From positions 4,508,501-4,572,500 of the forward strand of contig NZ_CM001023.1 in NCBI RefSeq assembly GCF_000166275.1: a DNA stretch of 64,000 bases. The letters are read 5' to 3'. Below, piece by piece: positions 33,044 through 40,184 of the stretch. The notes beneath the pieces are model-generated. The model saw only the letters and a program-made list of their open reading frames with translations, was not told where the DNA came from and ran no database searches. Origin of the DNA: Algoriphagus machipongonensis. GTDB lineage: Bacteria; Bacteroidota; Bacteroidia; Cytophagales; Cyclobacteriaceae. Made by a program: the position numbers and the translations under genes. Position 1 is the stretch's first letter. Each line of letters opens with the position of its first letter.

Positions 33044-33247
33044 GAGGGATTTTTTTTTATACAACCGAATAATGGACGCACAGGTTTTCAAATAAATTGA
33101 TTTCAGCTCCTAGGGCATTTTCGAAAGAAGGTTATTCAGGTCTTTTTAAAAAAATTTCAAATCATGATAGGGGTAAAATGGCTTTGACTTGTCTTATATA
33201 AAAACCCAATCAAACTATTATCTTGCAGGAACAGCTAATATGCCTCC

Positions 33248-33829
33248 ATGCAATTAACGGATCAAATGATTTTTCAGTCGATTAAATCAGGTGATGAAAA
33301 AGCACTGGAGATGTTATTTAAAGAATATTATCAACCCTTATGTCGCTACGCCAACTCCTACCTCCCAGATCCTGATGAGGCTGAGGAAGTCGTACAGAGC
33401 TGTTTTATCAAGTTTTGGGAAAAGCGTGAAAAAATTGACATCCAGAGCTCTGTCAAATCCTACCTGTATCAAATCATTCGAAATGCCTGTCTGAATGAAA
33501 TTAAACACCAGAGAGTCAAAAGGAATTACAGTGAAATGGTGATTCAAAAAGGGGAGGATTTTAGCGGGGCATCTGATGAGAAAACGATCCATGATGAATT
33601 GGAGGATAAAATCAGAAATGCCATCCAGAAATTACCCCAGCAATGCAGGGTCATTTTCACAATGAGTAGGTTTGAGGAATTGAAATACCAGGAAATAGCT
33701 GATCAGTTAAATATTTCCATTAAAACTGTGGAAAATCAAATGGGAAAAGCTTTGAAGATGATGCGTATTCAATTGCAGGAATACCTTCCATTTATCATCT
33801 TATTTATTCAGTTTTTAACAGAAAAATGA
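33248..33829 (+). CDS. RNA polymerase ECF sigma factor (FecI-like, Bacteroidota type)
   Basis: Alternative sigma factor that directs RNA polymerase to a small regulon, held inactive by the FecR-like gene that follows. Region 2 spans about residues 20-90 (EEVVQSCFIKFWEKREKI, SVKSYLYQIIRNACLNEIKHQ), and region 4 about 118-172 with the helix-turn-helix YQEIADQLNISIKTVENQMGKALK. Length 193 and architecture match the ECF group paired with FecR/SusC-type systems. Its stop overlaps the FecR ATG (ATGA), so both are translated together. Confidence 0.96.
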   Translation: MQLTDQMIFQSIKSGDEKALEMLFKEYYQPLCRYANSYLPDPDEAEEVVQSCFIKFWEKREKIDIQSSVKSYLYQIIRNACLNEIKHQRVKRNYSEMVIQKGEDFSGASDEKTIHDELEDKIRNAIQKLPQQCRVIFTMSRFEELKYQEIADQLNISIKTVENQMGKALKMMRIQLQEYLPFIILFIQFLTEK

Positions 33830-34800
33830 GAGATCAGGAAGAACTAAATATCGACAATCTAATCGCCAAATACATTGTAGGTGAGATCAGTCCTTCTGAA
33901 GAGAAAGAGCTGATGGACTGGTGTGCTCAATCTCCACAGAACCAAAAAACTCTGGATGATGAATTGTTGATTTTTAAAAGAGCTAACCTACCAAGTCAAC
34001 AAAAATTTGATTCCGAAAAGGCTTGGCAGAAAATCCAACCGCAGATCCAAAAACCAAAAGCTGGAAAATCAGTCCTATTTCCAATATGGAGAATCGCAGC
34101 GGGCTTTGCCTTAATTGCAGCAATTTCTATTCTCATCTACCAGCAAATCAATGCTCCAAAAGAATTTGAGTATCTCAGTGCGAGTAATGTAGAAACCCAA
34201 GTCTTGCCTGATAATACCAGCATCTCACTAAATCGGGATTCGGAAGTTCAAGTGGCCTACAATGAGAGAAAGAAAACTGGCTTAATCAAGCTTAGCGGTG
34301 AATCTCTTATCACTATCCCTGAGACCAAAAAAGTTACTTGGCAAGTACAGGTAGACCAGCTTTTAATAGAAGATATAGGAACAGTATTTAATGTAAAAGC
34401 GTATCCCGACAGCCCAATTGTGGAAGTTTCAGTGCTCGAAGGATTGGTGAAAATGTATTTACCCAATCAAGAGGGCATAGAACTAAGTGCAGGTGAAAAA
34501 GGGATCTTTGATAAAAGCGACAATACATTTTCTAAAACCATCTCTGATCAAAATGTGGTTGCTTATGCCTCACGATCTTTCTCCTATAATAATGATGATT
34601 TGACTACTGTCATCAGCCAACTTAGTGAGGTTTATCAAAAAGATATTCGTCTGGAAGGGCCGATAGGAAATTGTAGGCTAACAGTGAATTTTGAAGAAGA
34701 GGAATTGAATACGATATTGATGATTATTTCCGAAACTTTAAATTTGGAACTTCAACAAGAAGGGGACGAATTCCTACTTTCAGGCACGGGTTGCAATTAA
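33826..34800 (+). CDS. FecR-family anti-sigma factor
   Basis: Inner-membrane regulator that binds the adjacent ECF sigma factor and receives a signal from an outer-membrane partner in the periplasm. The N-terminal cytoplasmic part (1-84) contains the IVGEISPSEEKELMDWC motif typical of FecR-like proteins; one membrane helix lies at about 85-105; the FecR periplasmic domain is at about 120-215 (LPDNTSISLNRDSEVQVAY), and a C-terminal DUF4974/STN-like domain at about 250-320. Length 324 is standard. The next gene, starting 9 bases on, carries the matching STN domain. Confidence 0.95.
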   Translation: MRDQEELNIDNLIAKYIVGEISPSEEKELMDWCAQSPQNQKTLDDELLIFKRANLPSQQKFDSEKAWQKIQPQIQKPKAGKSVLFPIWRIAAGFALIAAISILIYQQINAPKEFEYLSASNVETQVLPDNTSISLNRDSEVQVAYNERKKTGLIKLSGESLITIPETKKVTWQVQVDQLLIEDIGTVFNVKAYPDSPIVEVSVLEGLVKMYLPNQEGIELSAGEKGIFDKSDNTFSKTISDQNVVAYASRSFSYNNDDLTTVISQLSEVYQKDIRLEGPIGNCRLTVNFEEEELNTILMIISETLNLELQQEGDEFLLSGTGCN

Positions 34801-34809
34801 TTTTTTAAG

Positions 34810-36489
34810 ATGAAAAATGTTTTAACAAGGTACCTTTTTCCGGTATTCTTTTTTCTGGGATTTAGCCAAGCTGCTTTCTCCCAGCAGAATTCTTTACTTG
34901 AAAAAAACATCAGCATATCCGCTGAAAACGAACCCTTAGAACAGTTTTTAAATCGCCTTTCCAAAGAAATAGGTGGTGTGTTTTCCTATAGCCCTTCAGC
35001 ATTGGATGTTTCATTGGATGTTTCTAAAAACTATGAAAACAACTCTTGTCGAGAGGTTTTAGAGGATGTCTTTAATGGGGAAGTAAATTACAAACAACGA
35101 GGTAATTACATTATTCTAACTCCAGCTCCATCCACAGACAAGGAAATCACTATCAGCGGCTATTTGGTGGATGAACAATCCGGAAATCGAATCAAAAATG
35201 CCACAGTTTATAACCCGATTACCCTGCAATCTTCCACCACGGATGAATTTGGTTTTTTTGAGTTTCAGATAAAAAATCCTGCAGAAGAAAACTTCCAATT
35301 GGTCATAAATAAAAAAGACTATGCAGATACCCTGATAGTGGATAATCAGAAATCCAGATTCAAGAAAATCTTCTTGAAAGCTGAGGGAGAAAATGTTGCC
35401 CCGATAGTTCAGAGCCTTACTGAACCCATGAAGAACTTCTGGATATGGACCAAAAACTCTGTGGGCTTCACCAACCTTGAAAACGTCCCTGATACGCTTG
35501 AAAGGGGCTTTCAGATGTCATTTGTTCCTTTCCTTGGAACCAATAGAAAGCTTTCAGGTTCTGTAGTTAATAACTTCTCCCTAAATATTTTAGGTGGTTT
35601 TTCCGGAGGCACAAACAAAGCAGAAATAGGTGGACTTTTTAACATCAACAGAAGAAATACGCAATATTTTCAAGTAGCAGGGTTATTCAATCAAGTGGGA
35701 GGAACTGTACGAGGATTGCAAATTGCCGGGCTTACCAATATAAATTTAGACACAGTCAGAGGAGTACAGTTTGCTGGAGTTTCGAACTTTAGCTCAGGGC
35801 CAGTGAAGGGATGGCAAACCGCAGGAGTTCTAAACATTTCTACTTCAGACATGGATGGATTACAACTAGCAGGAGTAGCAAATTACACGCATCATGATGT
35901 CCGAGGCGCCCAAATAAGCCCTGTCTTAAACATCGCTAGGAATGTCAAAGGCATGCAACTTGGCCTATTTAATTATTCAGATAGTATCTCTGGTACTCCT
36001 ATTGGACTGATCAGTTTTGTAAGGAAAGGATACCATAAAGTCGAACTGTCAGCAGATGAGATTTTACCTTTAAATGTATCCCTTAGAACAGGTACAAGGG
36101 GATTCTACACCATGCTTTTTGCTGGAATGAGACCTGAAAAAGCAGACTCAGTTACCTGGGCTTTTGGCTACGGGATAGGTAGCTCGCCAAGACTTGCCAA
36201 TAAGCTTTTCCTGAATGTGGAGCTAAGTTCGCAACAACTCATCAAAGGAAATATTCAGGCTTTAAACTTAATCAACAGGGGATTCATTGGCCTGGATTAT
36301 CAGTTGGCCAAGGGGATTGGAGTTTTTGCAGGGCCAAGCATCAATTTGAGGGTATACGATAATTCTTTTACAGATCATCCGGAATTATTCACTTACTCAT
36401 CGCCCAAAATCATCTCAGAAGAAGATTATACAGATGGTTTCAAAAGTCAATTATGGTGGGGCTGGAGAGCAGGAATACGCTTTTTCTAA
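34810..36489 (+). CDS. STN-domain protein with carboxypeptidase-regulatory-like domain and LA_2272-type surface repeats
   Basis: Predicted exported outer-membrane or surface protein. Order of parts: signal peptide (1-25), STN domain (about 33-104, ISAENEPLEQFLNRLS to YIILTPAP), carboxypeptidase-regulatory-like domain (112-190), then a beta-strand domain containing six 16-residue GxQxAGLxN repeats (286-380) and a conserved C-terminal end SQLWWGWRAGIRFF that could be a membrane strand. STN domains normally precede a TonB receptor barrel and talk to FecR; here the barrel is replaced by LA_2272 repeats. Following sigma/anti-sigma genes by 9 bases, it is a good candidate for the sensor of that pair. 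The ligand is unknown. Confidence 0.82.
   Translation: MKNVLTRYLFPVFFFLGFSQAAFSQQNSLLEKNISISAENEPLEQFLNRLSKEIGGVFSYSPSALDVSLDVSKNYENNSCREVLEDVFNGEVNYKQRGNYIILTPAPSTDKEITISGYLVDEQSGNRIKNATVYNPITLQSSTTDEFGFFEFQIKNPAEENFQLVINKKDYADTLIVDNQKSRFKKIFLKAEGENVAPIVQSLTEPMKNFWIWTKNSVGFTNLENVPDTLERGFQMSFVPFLGTNRKLSGSVVNNFSLNILGGFSGGTNKAEIGGLFNINRRNTQYFQVAGLFNQVGGTVRGLQIAGLTNINLDTVRGVQFAGVSNFSSGPVKGWQTAGVLNISTSDMDGLQLAGVANYTHHDVRGAQISPVLNIARNVKGMQLGLFNYSDSISGTPIGLISFVRKGYHKVELSADEILPLNVSLRTGTRGFYTMLFAGMRPEKADSVTWAFGYGIGSSPRLANKLFLNVELSSQQLIKGNIQALNLINRGFIGLDYQLAKGIGVFAGPSINLRVYDNSFTDHPELFTYSSPKIISEEDYTDGFKSQLWWGWRAGIRFF
35665..35949 (+). repeat. Six in-frame 48-bp repeats (16-residue GxQxAGLxN unit)
   Basis: Residues 286-380 split into 16-residue units starting YFQVAGLFNQ, GLQIAGLTN, GVQFAGVSN, GWQTAGVLN, GLQLAGVAN and GAQISPVLN (the last shorter). 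The pattern G-x-Q-x-A-G-x-x-N recurs at a fixed spacing. The same unit appears in the next gene. Confidence 0.9.
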
Positions 36490-36567
36490 AAATTTTAATT
36501 TTTTTCAATTTTTCATAGGGGTCGTTTGAATTTCGATTGTCTTAGAATCGAAATCTAATCCAAGACT

Positions 36568-37761
36568 ATGAAAACGTTTAACAAATTAATCGGGGCTTTC
36601 TTACTATTTACCCTGAATCCACTATCGGGAATTTCACAAACAACAAATGACAATGAAGCTGGAATTTCTACCAGTAATTTCCAAATATCTATTGTCCCTT
36701 ATTTAGGAACCAACGGCACTCGCTCAGGAACCACTATCAATGATTATTCTTTTAACCTTTTTGGTGGCTACTCAGCAGGAACCAATAAACTAGAGATGGC
36801 TAGTTTATTCAATATCAATCGATATGATGCCAAGCATGTACAATTAGCTGGCTTATTTAATCAAGTAGGTGGCAAATTCAACGGAGTTCAACTCGCTGGC
36901 TTAGTGAATTCAAGTTTAGATTCTGTTCAAGGCCTTCAAGGGGCTGGGCTAGTCAATTTCACAGCTACTGGATTAAGAGGTGCTCAGATGGCAGGTCTGG
37001 TAAACTTTTCCGGGCAGCAAGCACATGGATTCCAAGCTGCTGGGCTAATCAATTTCTCAGGAAAAGAATTCAATGGTTTTCAAGGAGCTGGTCTTGGAAA
37101 CTTTGCTATAGGTGATGTCCATGGCACGCAGGCTGCAGGGTTGATCAATTTTACTCCAAAAGACCTCCATGGTGTACAGATAGCAGGAATTTTGAACTTT
37201 GCTAGAAATGTTCATGGATCCCAAATAGGACTAATTAATTACTCAGATAGCACTTCTGGAGCACCTATTGGATTGATTAGTTTTGTAAAATCAGGTTATC
37301 ATAAAATAGAGCTTAGCACTAATGAAAACCTTCCTATCAATTTTGCTTTCCGCACCGGAACCAGAAGCTTTTATAATATCGTCATGGTTGGTTTTCGTCC
37401 AGAATTTACCGAGTTCACCACTTGGGCATTCGGATACGGAATAGGAACATCTCCCAGACTAGGGAAAAAGTCCTTCTTAAATATTGAACTCAGTTCCGAA
37501 CAACTTAATCGCGGAAATGTAGAAGCTCTCAATATGATCAATCGCCTGCATGTTGGTTTAGACTTACAGGTTGCTAAAAAGTTTGGGATTTTCGCAGGCC
37601 CAACGCTTAACTATCGATTGTACGAAAACAACTATGACCGTCATCCTGACTTATTTATTTACGACGGTTTCAAAGTCATCTCCGAAGGCACTTATAAATA
37701 CAACTCAGACCTTGGAGGCCAATTATGGTGGGGCTTCCGCGCAGGTTTAAGATTCCTATAA
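36568..37761 (+). CDS. LA_2272-type surface repeat protein (paralogue lacking the STN domain)
   Basis: Exported repeat protein closely related to the preceding gene product over its last 330 residues. The signal peptide ends near residue 24 (SGISQ). The shared opening IVPYLGTNGTRSGTTIND resembles FVPFLGTNRKLSGSVVNN upstream, then come seven to eight 16-residue GxQxAGLxN units (about 90-216), the shared stretch YSDSTSGAPIGLISFVKSGYHKIELS split here to SGAPIGLISFVKSGYHK, and the end QLWWGFRAGLRFL. It lacks the STN and regulatory domains, so cannot signal by itself. Likely a duplication product and perhaps a partner or substitute of the upstream protein. Gap of 78 bases; probably co-transcribed. 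Confidence 0.82.
   Translation: MKTFNKLIGAFLLFTLNPLSGISQTTNDNEAGISTSNFQISIVPYLGTNGTRSGTTINDYSFNLFGGYSAGTNKLEMASLFNINRYDAKHVQLAGLFNQVGGKFNGVQLAGLVNSSLDSVQGLQGAGLVNFTATGLRGAQMAGLVNFSGQQAHGFQAAGLINFSGKEFNGFQGAGLGNFAIGDVHGTQAAGLINFTPKDLHGVQIAGILNFARNVHGSQIGLINYSDSTSGAPIGLISFVKSGYHKIELSTNENLPINFAFRTGTRSFYNIVMVGFRPEFTEFTTWAFGYGIGTSPRLGKKSFLNIELSSEQLNRGNVEALNMINRLHVGLDLQVAKKFGIFAGPTLNYRLYENNYDRHPDLFIYDGFKVISEGTYKYNSDLGGQLWWGFRAGLRFL
36835..37215 (+). repeat. Eight in-frame 48-bp repeats (16-residue unit)
   Basis: Residues 90-216 divide into units HVQLAGLFN, GVQLAGLVN, GLQGAGLVN, GAQMAGLVN, GFQAAGLIN, GFQGAGLGN, GTQAAGLIN and GVQIAGILN (each given by its first nine residues). All are 16 residues long except the last, which is 15. 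The regular period and invariant Gly, Gln, Gly and Asn suggest a beta-solenoid or stacked strands. Confidence 0.92.
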
Positions 37762-37836
37762 ACACATTCATTCTACATCTTTCTTTCACTGAGAATTACT
37801 CAGAATGGAAGACCCATGTCTAAAAATTGAAATGCT

Positions 37837-39864
37837 ATGAATTCTCTTTTCAAAATCTATCTCTTTTTATGTCTGTTCTTGATTCAAATATCCGCTCAAG
37901 CGCAGGAAATAAGTCAAACGGTTCGGGGGAAAATTGTTGACCAGGTCAGCAAATCACCCCTGATAGGTGCTTCTATTATGATTCTCAACACAGATCCTTT
38001 GATCGGAGGAGTCACCAATGAATTGGGAGAATTCAAGCTTCAAAATGTACCCCTGGGTCAGCATTCTTTACGCGTAAGTTATGTTGGATACCAAGAGTCT
38101 ATCTTGCCAAACGTACAAGTAAACTCAGGGAAAGAGGTTGTATTAGAGGTCTTCATGGAAGAAGACATCACACAGATTCAAGAATTTGTAGTGACTGCTA
38201 CAGAAAAAGATAGAACTATCAATGATATGGTGGTGGTCAGCGGTAGAACATTTTCGGTTGAGGAAACAAAAAAGTTTGCTGCTGCTGTTAACGACCCAGG
38301 CAGAATGGCTGCCTCCTTTTCAGGTGTGGTGAGTACTGATGATGGCAATAACAACATTTCTATTCGAGGAAATAGTCCAAATGGATTACTTTGGAGAATG
38401 GAGGGAATAGAAATTCCCAACCCAAATCATTTCATTAACCCAGGGAGTTCGGGCGGTGGTGTATCTATCTTAAGTGCTCAACTTCTATCCAATTCAGATT
38501 TCCTAACAGGAGCTTTTCCTGCTGAATATGGGAATGCCCTTTCGGGAGTTTTCGACCTAAATCTGAGAAAAGGAAATAATGAAAATCAAGAGTATACTTT
38601 CCAAGCTGGATTTCTAGGTATAGACGTAGCTGCGGAGGGTCCTATTGCCAAGAATTACCGGGGTTCATATTTGGTCAACTACCGATATTCCACGCTTTCA
38701 CTTTTATCAAAACTTGGGTTACCCTTAGGAGATTTTGCAACCAATTTCCAGGATCTTTCCTTCAATATTTATCTTCCTACTAGTGCTAAAAGCAGTTTTT
38801 CAATATTTGGCTTCGGTGGGCTTAGTGACCAAGATAGTGAGGCGGAATCAGATTCATTGAAATGGGAGAGCGATGGCGACAGGTACAGCTCTAATTTCCT
38901 TTCCAATACTGGAGCAATTGGGTTAAAACATTCTTTGACTGTAAACAAGTCAAATTTCCTTCAATCCACTATCCTGTTTTCTGGCAATACCATTGAATTC
39001 AATGAGTTTAGATTAAATCAGGAAATAGTCAATGAGAATCGCTATCAAGAGCAGTTTGGCAATTCTAAAATAACTCTGAGTACGGTCTTGAATTCTAAAT
39101 TATCTGCAAGATCCAGTCTGCGAACAGGCATTTATCTCAACCAGCTATATTATAATTTGTATCAAAACAATTATGATGAAGACCAGGGAATCATGGTACG
39201 TGAGATTGACTCTAAAGGCAATACACAAAGTATTCAGGCTTTCTCACAATGGAATTATAAGGCAAATGACCGTCTTACGTTGAATGTTGGTTTGCATTAT
39301 TTGGAGCTACTTCTGAATCATTCAAGATCTATTGAGCCCAGGCTGAGCGCTTCCTATGAACTCGATGAGGTACAACGAATTAATTTCGGGTATGGCCTGC
39401 ACAGTCAGATCCAACCATTGGGAACCTATCTTGCAGAGCAAGAAGTGAATGGTACCATTTTACTTCCAAATGAAAACCTTGATTTTAGTAAATCGCATCA
39501 TTTTGTCTTGGGTTATGACCGTTCCCTCAATCCTTTCCTACGATTAAAGCTAGAAGCCTATTATCAGCATTTATTCCAAATTCCAATCAAGGAAGGGGTT
39601 GATGAGACTTATTCTATTATCAACCAGCAATGGACATTTGCTACAGATCCATTGATCAATGAAGGGTTTGGAAAAAATTATGGTGTAGAGCTGACTTTGG
39701 AGCAATTCACCAATAATAACATGTACTTCCTGCTTTCAACCTCACTCTATAATTCGCTTTATAAGACTCAGGAAAACGTCTGGAGAAATACTCGGTACAA
39801 TGGGAATTTGAACGTCACATTTACAGGAGGAAAAGAATTTGCCTTGAAAAAAATCGAGCCTTAG
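37837..39864 (+). CDS. TonB-dependent receptor, main part (reading frame broken near the 3' end)
   Basis: Outer-membrane receptor for energised uptake. The signal peptide ends near residue 23 (SAQAQ), a carboxypeptidase-regulatory-like domain spans about 27-110, the plug about 115-230 (NISIRGNSPNGLLWRMEGIEIPNP, split here as ISIRGNSPNG and RMEGIEIP), and barrel strands follow. There is no STN domain. At an A7 run (39847-39853) the frame ends at TAG a few codons on, and the missing C-terminal strands continue in another frame up to 40184. One more A would restore a receptor of about 782 residues. It follows the sigma/FecR/repeat genes and may belong to their regulon. Confidence 0.88.
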   Translation: MNSLFKIYLFLCLFLIQISAQAQEISQTVRGKIVDQVSKSPLIGASIMILNTDPLIGGVTNELGEFKLQNVPLGQHSLRVSYVGYQESILPNVQVNSGKEVVLEVFMEEDITQIQEFVVTATEKDRTINDMVVVSGRTFSVEETKKFAAAVNDPGRMAASFSGVVSTDDGNNNISIRGNSPNGLLWRMEGIEIPNPNHFINPGSSGGGVSILSAQLLSNSDFLTGAFPAEYGNALSGVFDLNLRKGNNENQEYTFQAGFLGIDVAAEGPIAKNYRGSYLVNYRYSTLSLLSKLGLPLGDFATNFQDLSFNIYLPTSAKSSFSIFGFGGLSDQDSEAESDSLKWESDGDRYSSNFLSNTGAIGLKHSLTVNKSNFLQSTILFSGNTIEFNEFRLNQEIVNENRYQEQFGNSKITLSTVLNSKLSARSSLRTGIYLNQLYYNLYQNNYDEDQGIMVREIDSKGNTQSIQAFSQWNYKANDRLTLNVGLHYLELLLNHSRSIEPRLSASYELDEVQRINFGYGLHSQIQPLGTYLAEQEVNGTILLPNENLDFSKSHHFVLGYDRSLNPFLRLKLEAYYQHLFQIPIKEGVDETYSIINQQWTFATDPLINEGFGKNYGVELTLEQFTNNNMYFLLSTSLYNSLYKTQENVWRNTRYNGNLNVTFTGGKEFALKKIEP

Positions 39865-40184
39865 GAATCAACCTTCGGGCAATCTATGGAGGGGGCTTTA
39901 GGACGAACCCAATCCTTTTGGATGAATCCATTGAAGCAGAAGAAACTGTTTTTGATGAGAACCGAGCCTTTGAAGAGCAAAACCCTGCTTATTTCAGAAC
40001 TGATTTGAGAATCAGCCTGAAGAAAAATAAACCAAAATCAACTCGCACCTGGGCTTTGGACATACAAAACGCGACCAACAGAAAAAATGTCTATGGAAGC
40101 TATTATGATCCAACAGAAGGAGAGATCATGACTTCTTATTTGACTCCATTAATCCCGATCCTTAGTTATCGAGTAGAGTTCTAA
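39865..40184 (+). pseudogene. 3' end of the TonB-dependent receptor in a shifted frame
   Basis: Directly after the premature stop, the frame that begins LGINLRAIYGGGFRTNPILL continues to a stop at 40184 and ends YRVEF, a typical C-terminal beta-strand with terminal Phe for an outer-membrane barrel. KSTRTWALDIQNATNRKNV is the usual penultimate strand of this receptor family. It has no start codon of its own suited to translation (a TTG at 39918 only). It is therefore the detached end of the preceding receptor gene, not an independent protein. Cause: true frameshift mutation, slippage, or sequencing error in a homopolymer. Confidence 0.85.

Follow-up and report, generated by a model that had tools for sequence, protein, structure and literature searches.

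In the present study, we analyzed a sigma/anti-sigma locus in a 64,000-nucleotide stretch of the Algoriphagus machipongonensis genome (contig NZ_CM001023.1, positions 4,508,501 to 4,572,500; this whole stretch is the window, and the positions in Table 1 count from its first letter). The results suggest an autoregulated cell-surface-signaling circuit of the FecI/FecR type, in which the protein that passes on the signal, hereafter the transducer, is a small non-TonB barrel rather than a TonB-dependent receptor, and we give this reading a probability of roughly two in three. The domain order, the adjacency of the genes, and a promoter-like motif with its two genomic copies can be read directly from the DNA. 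A first-pass annotation had described an extracytoplasmic function (ECF) sigma gene overlapping a FecR-like anti-sigma gene by ATGA and a repeat protein with an STN signaling domain nine bases further on, and this arrangement is exactly as claimed: the sigma and FecR genes share four bases (33826-33829), and the gap between the FecR and transducer genes spans 34801-34809. These three genes are referred to below as the module.

Table 1. Features of the locus, with positions in the window.
Feature	Position	Strand	Description
Promoter-like motif TAGGGGT-N14-TTGTC	33168..33193	+	54 bases upstream of sigma gene
ECF sigma factor	33248..33829	+	193 aa; TIGR02985 190.4 bits (cut-off 126.4)
FecR-like anti-sigma factor	33826..34800	+	324 aa; FecR (PF04773, 47.4 bits) and FecR_C (PF16344, 39.3 bits), both above cut-off
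Proposed transducer	34810..36489	+	559 aa; signal peptide, STN, carboxypeptidase-regulatory domain (CPD), predicted beta-solenoid and 8-stranded barrel
STN signaling domain of transducer	34906..35127	+	residues 33-106
CPD (transthyretin-like) of transducer	35143..35388	+	residues 112-193
Predicted beta-solenoid of 16-residue LA_2272 repeats in transducer	35494..36024	+	about residues 229-405
Predicted C-terminal 8-stranded outer-membrane barrel of transducer	36025..36486	+	about residues 406-559; C-terminal Phe
Second motif copy TAGGGGT-N14-TTGTC	36516..36541	+	26 bases upstream of paralogue
Repeat-only paralogue	36568..37761	+	397 aa; predicted solenoid and barrel; no STN or CPD match; NF047436
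TonB-dependent receptor without STN (CPD and Plug), first part	37837..39864	+	frame broken near end
Open reading frame (ORF) over the receptor's C-terminal remainder	39918..40184	+	different frame; compare the longer receptors in L005-L007

Several findings support a transducer of this kind. First, the source genome provides its own control. This genome is a single contig of 4,786,724 bases with four FecR genes, three of which each lie between a sigma gene and a protein of 1094-1177 amino acids with STN, CPD and Plug domains, whereas the fourth precedes the transducer; the repeat protein thus occupies the place of the receptor. The STN family PF07660 is matched unaided by all three receptor-type proteins, above the cut-off in two and at 25.8 against 28.4 bits in the third, and a receptor-barrel family is matched in one of them. 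No LA_2272 repeats were detected elsewhere in this genome at E ≤ 0.01. As a separate observation, an orphan STN receptor was noted at L121 (G000:C1:4386346-4386456), where a receptor-like ORF of 912 amino acids has a weak STN match and neither a sigma nor a FecR gene was found in the 12-kb stretch around it.

Second, the module recurs widely, and the STN-bearing repeat protein follows FecR throughout. A protein search returned 1288 relatives of the transducer, a match was present in 97 of the 118 genomes searched from the family, and profile searching across 247 genomes from the class gave 85 at E ≤ 1e-20, including STN-CPD parts of long receptor-type ORFs. From these, 72 clusters among the matches listed for the 118 genomes, 58 among those listed for the 247, and five named loci were fetched, leaving aside repeat-only clusters with weaker matches and the hits in long ORFs from the 247-genome search; with the window, this set comprised 136 neighborhoods, in which close relatives were not thinned and some stretches were truncated at contig ends. 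An STN/CPD-repeat ORF was present in 110 neighborhoods and absent from 26. In all 110, the next upstream gene was FecR, in the same orientation (seen by ORF call in 109 and by six-frame translation in L197), and a sigma gene adjoined FecR in 106 (102 by ORF call and four more by the six-frame check). Conversely, a FecR ORF was absent in 24 of the 26 neighborhoods without an STN-repeat ORF; the two exceptions were L113, where a set of the receptor type is present, and L173, where the module's transducer is split over two frames. Repeat proteins without STN therefore occur free of FecR, whereas those with STN were never seen so in the fetched loci. The annotation had held that a repeat protein, in the place of the TonB receptor, carries the STN domain, had suggested looking for the same domain order beside sigma/FecR genes in other Bacteroidota, and had regarded a repeat protein mostly free of such neighbors as fatal to its proposal; the comparison within the genome and the 110 neighborhoods bear out the first two points, and for the STN-bearing form the third situation was not encountered. 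Split transducers were also seen at L173 (4407-8001, one internal TGA) and L161 (6253-9801, two frames), still behind sigma and FecR.

Third, the STN assignment is real at the level of the family. PF07660 was matched at E ≤ 1e-3 in 72 of 111 diverse relatives (35 of 55 and 37 of 56) and CarbopepD_reg_2 at the same threshold in 103, and Plug or receptor-barrel families were matched at this threshold in none of the 111. A profile of 109 repeat-type STN regions aligned with 21 STN regions from repeat-free proteins at 99.3% probability (E 1.1e-20; 1.3% with CPD as the control), a comparison that is not independent because the repeat-type STN itself had seeded the profile used to excise the regions. 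These results answer the possibility, raised at the outset, that the STN-like region would have no STN match. On the side of the anti-sigma factor, the STN-like region of FecR aligned with the STN profile at 97.4% probability (E 9.4e-12), and the FecR_C profile also matched STN regions in other proteins. Both repeat proteins of the window exceed the cut-off of 25 bits for the LA_2272 repeat (NF047436; transducer 26.9 bits, paralogue 38.4 bits), with a repeat period of 16 residues. The transducer is 77% identical to its closest named relatives, which are from Algoriphagus. The protein itself is already present in NCBI, where some members are called "STN and carboxypeptidase regulatory-like domain-containing protein" with no function attached. 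One relative, P0115, was considered as a FecR-transducer fusion from its listed FecR_C, STN and CPD domains and was rejected, as it has only a longer N-terminus, with no FecR part before the STN.

Fourth, the predicted fold of the transducer is that of a small barrel. An AlphaFold2 model (pLDDT, predicted local distance difference test score, 89.3) shows the STN as a separate domain, followed by a transthyretin-like domain, a beta-solenoid, and a C-terminal 8-stranded outer-membrane barrel; structural matches were found for the predicted barrel and solenoid, and no plug domain was found in the transducer. The outer-membrane location is taken from this predicted fold. The repeats had been proposed as a sensor on the cell surface, and this is not borne out by the model: since the predicted solenoid lies on the N-terminal side of the barrel, the simplest topology would place the repeats probably in the periplasm. 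As to the earlier question of whether the repeat domain can form a barrel, the repeats are modeled as a solenoid and the barrel is predicted for the C-terminal part. The model of the paralogue, also a solenoid plus barrel, is less confident (pLDDT 74.4).

Fifth, a shared motif links the genes of the locus. Motif discovery was performed on the regions upstream of sigma, repeat-only and receptor genes against those of unlabeled neighbors, and GGGT-N15-TGTC was found in 27/46 repeat-only, 28/95 sigma and 12/36 receptor upstream regions compared with 9/322 background regions, which come from the same loci and may contain true copies. In the 110 loci (1.68 Mb), AGGGGT-N14-TTGTC occurs in 76 copies on the module strand and none on the opposite strand, and the same pair of boxes occurs 76 times at a spacer of 14 and zero or one time at each spacer of 10-13 and 15-18. 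Allowing one mismatch gave 142 sense and 10 antisense copies; the exact motif is present in 52/110 loci and the motif with at most one mismatch in 82/110 (opposite strand, 9/110). The spacers have a mean identity of only 0.34, and a T precedes AGGGGT in 81/81 copies across all loci although this T was not searched for, a pattern more indicative of selection than of relatedness alone. By position, 24 of the 76 copies precede sigma and 13 precede FecR at its junction with sigma; 19 stand upstream of a repeat-only gene, eight upstream of an STN-less receptor and ten upstream of another ORF, with two at no called start. Most copies are therefore consistent with either autoregulation of the regulatory genes or regulation of the repeat-only gene and receptor. 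The window holds two copies against 0.02 expected, and TAGGGGT-N14-TTGTC occurs exactly twice in the whole 4.79-Mb source genome, both times at this locus. No exact copy lies between the FecR and transducer genes of the window, so the transducer would share the promoter of the sigma operon. Across 36 genomes (29 with the module and seven without, as judged from the 118- and 247-genome searches), 60 copies were found, 34 inside fetched module neighborhoods, in 21 genomes; the seven module-free genomes together hold one copy.

Herein, we propose how such a circuit might work. The transducer would be anchored in the outer membrane by its C-terminal barrel, and its repeats would form a rigid solenoid, most likely pointing into the periplasm. 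The N-terminal CPD and STN would extend towards the inner membrane, where the STN could pair with FecR through the STN-like domain at the FecR C-terminus. This contact would change when a signal reaches the barrel or solenoid, and FecR might then release the sigma factor, or be cut to release it. The free sigma factor would read TAGGGGT-N14-TTGTC and raise its own operon, including the transducer, as well as the paralogue with the STN-less receptor behind it; it is at this reading of the motif, together with the membrane topology and the STN-FecR contact, that we infer rather than observe. The paralogue had been offered as an effector, decoy or co-receptor; because the same motif lies upstream, it is more plausibly an output of the sigma factor than a decoy, and either of the two other roles may fit. 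An output is the best reading of the paralogue, and the TonB receptor is probably an output as well.

This proposal has to be weighed against a number of results. The transducer's own matches to PF07660 (23.4 against 28.4 bits) and CarbopepD_reg_2 (25.9 against 32.2 bits) fall below the Pfam cut-offs, so that the copy in the window, taken alone, is weak. Four of the 110 modules have no sigma gene next to FecR: in L104 and L109 one lies about 3.6 kb upstream, and none was found in L186 and L191. The exact motif was not found in 58/110 loci, and the motif with at most one mismatch was not found in 28/110. In the source genome, the reversed pattern occurs four times compared with the two copies of the true pattern, and a looser pattern gives six matches, four of them outside the locus, against nine for its reverse; likewise, the reversed pattern gave 31 matches against 60 in the 36 genomes, and a lone match elsewhere thus means little. 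A motif at the sigma/FecR junction would drive FecR and the transducer and not sigma, so sigma autoregulation is not general. In a set of 12 genomes, the exact motif was present in 3/10 FecR loci with a repeat protein and also in 1/24 control FecR loci without one; the control copies belong to a divergently arranged FecR-sigma pair of G248, showing that the motif is not exclusive to the module. Finally, quick trees with long branches (39 of 109 repeat-type and 24 other FecR proteins; 38 and 23 sigma factors) placed the repeat-type sequences mostly together, with two changes for FecR and five for sigma against about 19 in shuffles, and did not resolve them as one clean branch. As to individual loci, the junction copies occur at L067, L070, L074, L075, L094, L096, L153, L155-L157, L178, L193 and L206, and the G248 locus (L296, 5072-9969) carries a second FecR-sigma pair in reversed order, with three motif copies before FecR, a 303-amino-acid ORF and a 755-amino-acid receptor-like ORF.

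Other explanations of the locus were considered. The true sensor might be the TonB receptor at 37837-40184, binding the STN-bearing barrel as a mere relay to FecR, so that signaling would still be TonB-driven and split over two proteins. Profiles grown from the window's receptor and STN found an STN-less receptor within 7 kb in 72/110 loci and an STN-bearing receptor in none, and repeat-only gene and receptor are also paired away from sigma genes (L095, L112, L185 and L190), which would suit such a partnership. However, no STN-less receptor was seen within this distance in the other 38 loci, some of which are truncated by contig ends, the receptor itself is preceded by the motif in eight cases, fitting an output, and the receptor frame in the window is broken while the rest of the locus is intact; we consider this explanation unlikely. 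We would put at about the same low level the idea, compatible with a small-barrel transducer, that the signal is the outer-membrane folding of the transducer itself or a defect in lipid or barrel assembly, with no external ligand. The candidate outputs are envelope proteins (solenoid-barrels, the receptor and, in other genomes, DUF2807 proteins), and in half of the 12 genomes compared below no FecR gene other than the module's was found, which suggests a basic role, but those genomes were hand-picked among module bearers.

Far less probable than either is the view that the STN-repeat protein stands outside signaling and that its STN-CPD part is left over from a receptor gene that had its barrel replaced, persisting only through its place in the operon. 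The weak STN score of the window's copy and the 39 of 111 relatives that miss E 1e-3 are what one would expect of a relic, whereas the unbroken adjacency to FecR in the fetched loci, the STN matches in the majority of relatives, and the occurrence of STN-less repeat proteins away from FecR all argue for a retained function. The small-barrel transducer is the preferred reading. An extension of it can be entertained more tentatively, at somewhat less than even odds: the module might represent a widespread TonB-independent signaling branch, in which an 8-stranded barrel with a periplasmic solenoid rod of variable length presents STN to FecR and the outer membrane, or something bound by the small barrel, is read without import. 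In several Bacteroidota this would be the sole FecR system, and one conserved promoter would control solenoid-barrels, the receptor and head-GIN (DUF2807) proteins.

Comparison with known systems places the module near, and apart from, established signaling. According to PMC11637429 and PMC9249621, an STN-type domain contacts FecR-like proteins in known cell-surface signaling, which is tied to TonB-driven import with the importer as sensor. As in systems of the FecI/FecR/FecA type (FecA, FpvA, PupB, FoxA), the locus has an ECF sigma factor, an anti-sigma factor with FecR and an STN-like FecR_C domain, and, beside FecR, an N-terminal STN on a protein predicted to reside in the outer membrane; unlike them, the STN bearer is a predicted 8-stranded barrel, with no plug or large barrel found, and not a TonB-energized receptor with plug and TonB box. 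The STN-CPD-Plug receptors of Bacteroidota, such as the three in the source genome, share the N-terminal domain pair and the position after FecR, but there the next domain is Plug instead of a solenoid and small barrel. Dma anti-sigma factors, as described in PMC13088901, likewise connect the outer membrane with an ECF sigma factor in Bacteroidota, with one protein that spans from outer membrane to cytosol; in the window and the annotated neighborhoods, FecR and the outer-membrane protein are encoded separately, and STN would join the two. The LA_2272 family is named for surface repeats, whereas the repeats described here more likely face the periplasm. In Leptospira, PMC12155086 reports a FecR-like pair in a genus whose TonB receptors all lack the N-terminal extension, a gap that might be closed by such a non-TonB transducer. 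No description of the module or its motif was found in the literature searched, and this sigma group may have been described earlier. If the proposal is true, sensing would be separated from transport, and whether STN-FecR signaling needs TonB would become a question that can be asked directly; the motif makes the regulon testable in any module-bearing strain.

Several further features of the locus and its relatives were observed. The receptor of the window has CPD and Plug domains, and a domain scan gave no STN match in it, as the annotation had stated; it is not, as had been assumed, one intact gene, since its frame breaks near 39.86 kb in a single-contig genome, a break that could be a genuine mutation or an error of sequencing. 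Among named relatives, L005, L006 and L007 have the receptor as a single ORF of 782-790 amino acids, and STN-less receptor ORFs of at least 600 amino acids in the fetched loci have a median of 787 (n = 71, the window's 675-amino-acid ORF included). An additional repeat-only gene is present in 48/110 loci, and a receptor is among the next three same-strand ORFs for 34/73 repeat-only genes. In 12 genomes chosen among module bearers and not at random, exactly one FecR match, that of the module, was found in six, and the others had 4, 4, 5, 13, 19 and 88; the 88 belong to G080, a genome of the family, the other 11 ranging from 1 to 19. LA_2272 repeats as such occur in 66/296 genomes of the phylum.

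Outside the fetched module stretches lie 26 of the 60 motif copies, one of them before the repeat-only gene in L113. Ten off-module loci were read: copies fall within genes in three (L267, L273 and L280), a FecR gene follows in L290, and an uncharacterized protein of 206-216 amino acids lies just behind the motif in two genomes of one genus (L281, 1552-2172; L282, 1522-2172), a Pfam scan of the L281 copy giving no match. In the remaining four (L266, L275, L287 and L288), a DUF2807 (head GIN) gene stands directly behind the motif, its called start overlapping the motif in two. A further fixed gene of the module was sought by clustering unlabeled ORFs within 6 kb of transducers and was rejected, as no family occurred in more than 12 loci; of the 12 ORFs in the largest cluster, none of which lies in the window's locus, the four scanned (L050, L191, L193 and L066) were all DUF2807. 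DUF2807 or small barrel-like proteins stand beside the module in some loci, namely L193, L191, L050, L066 and L048.

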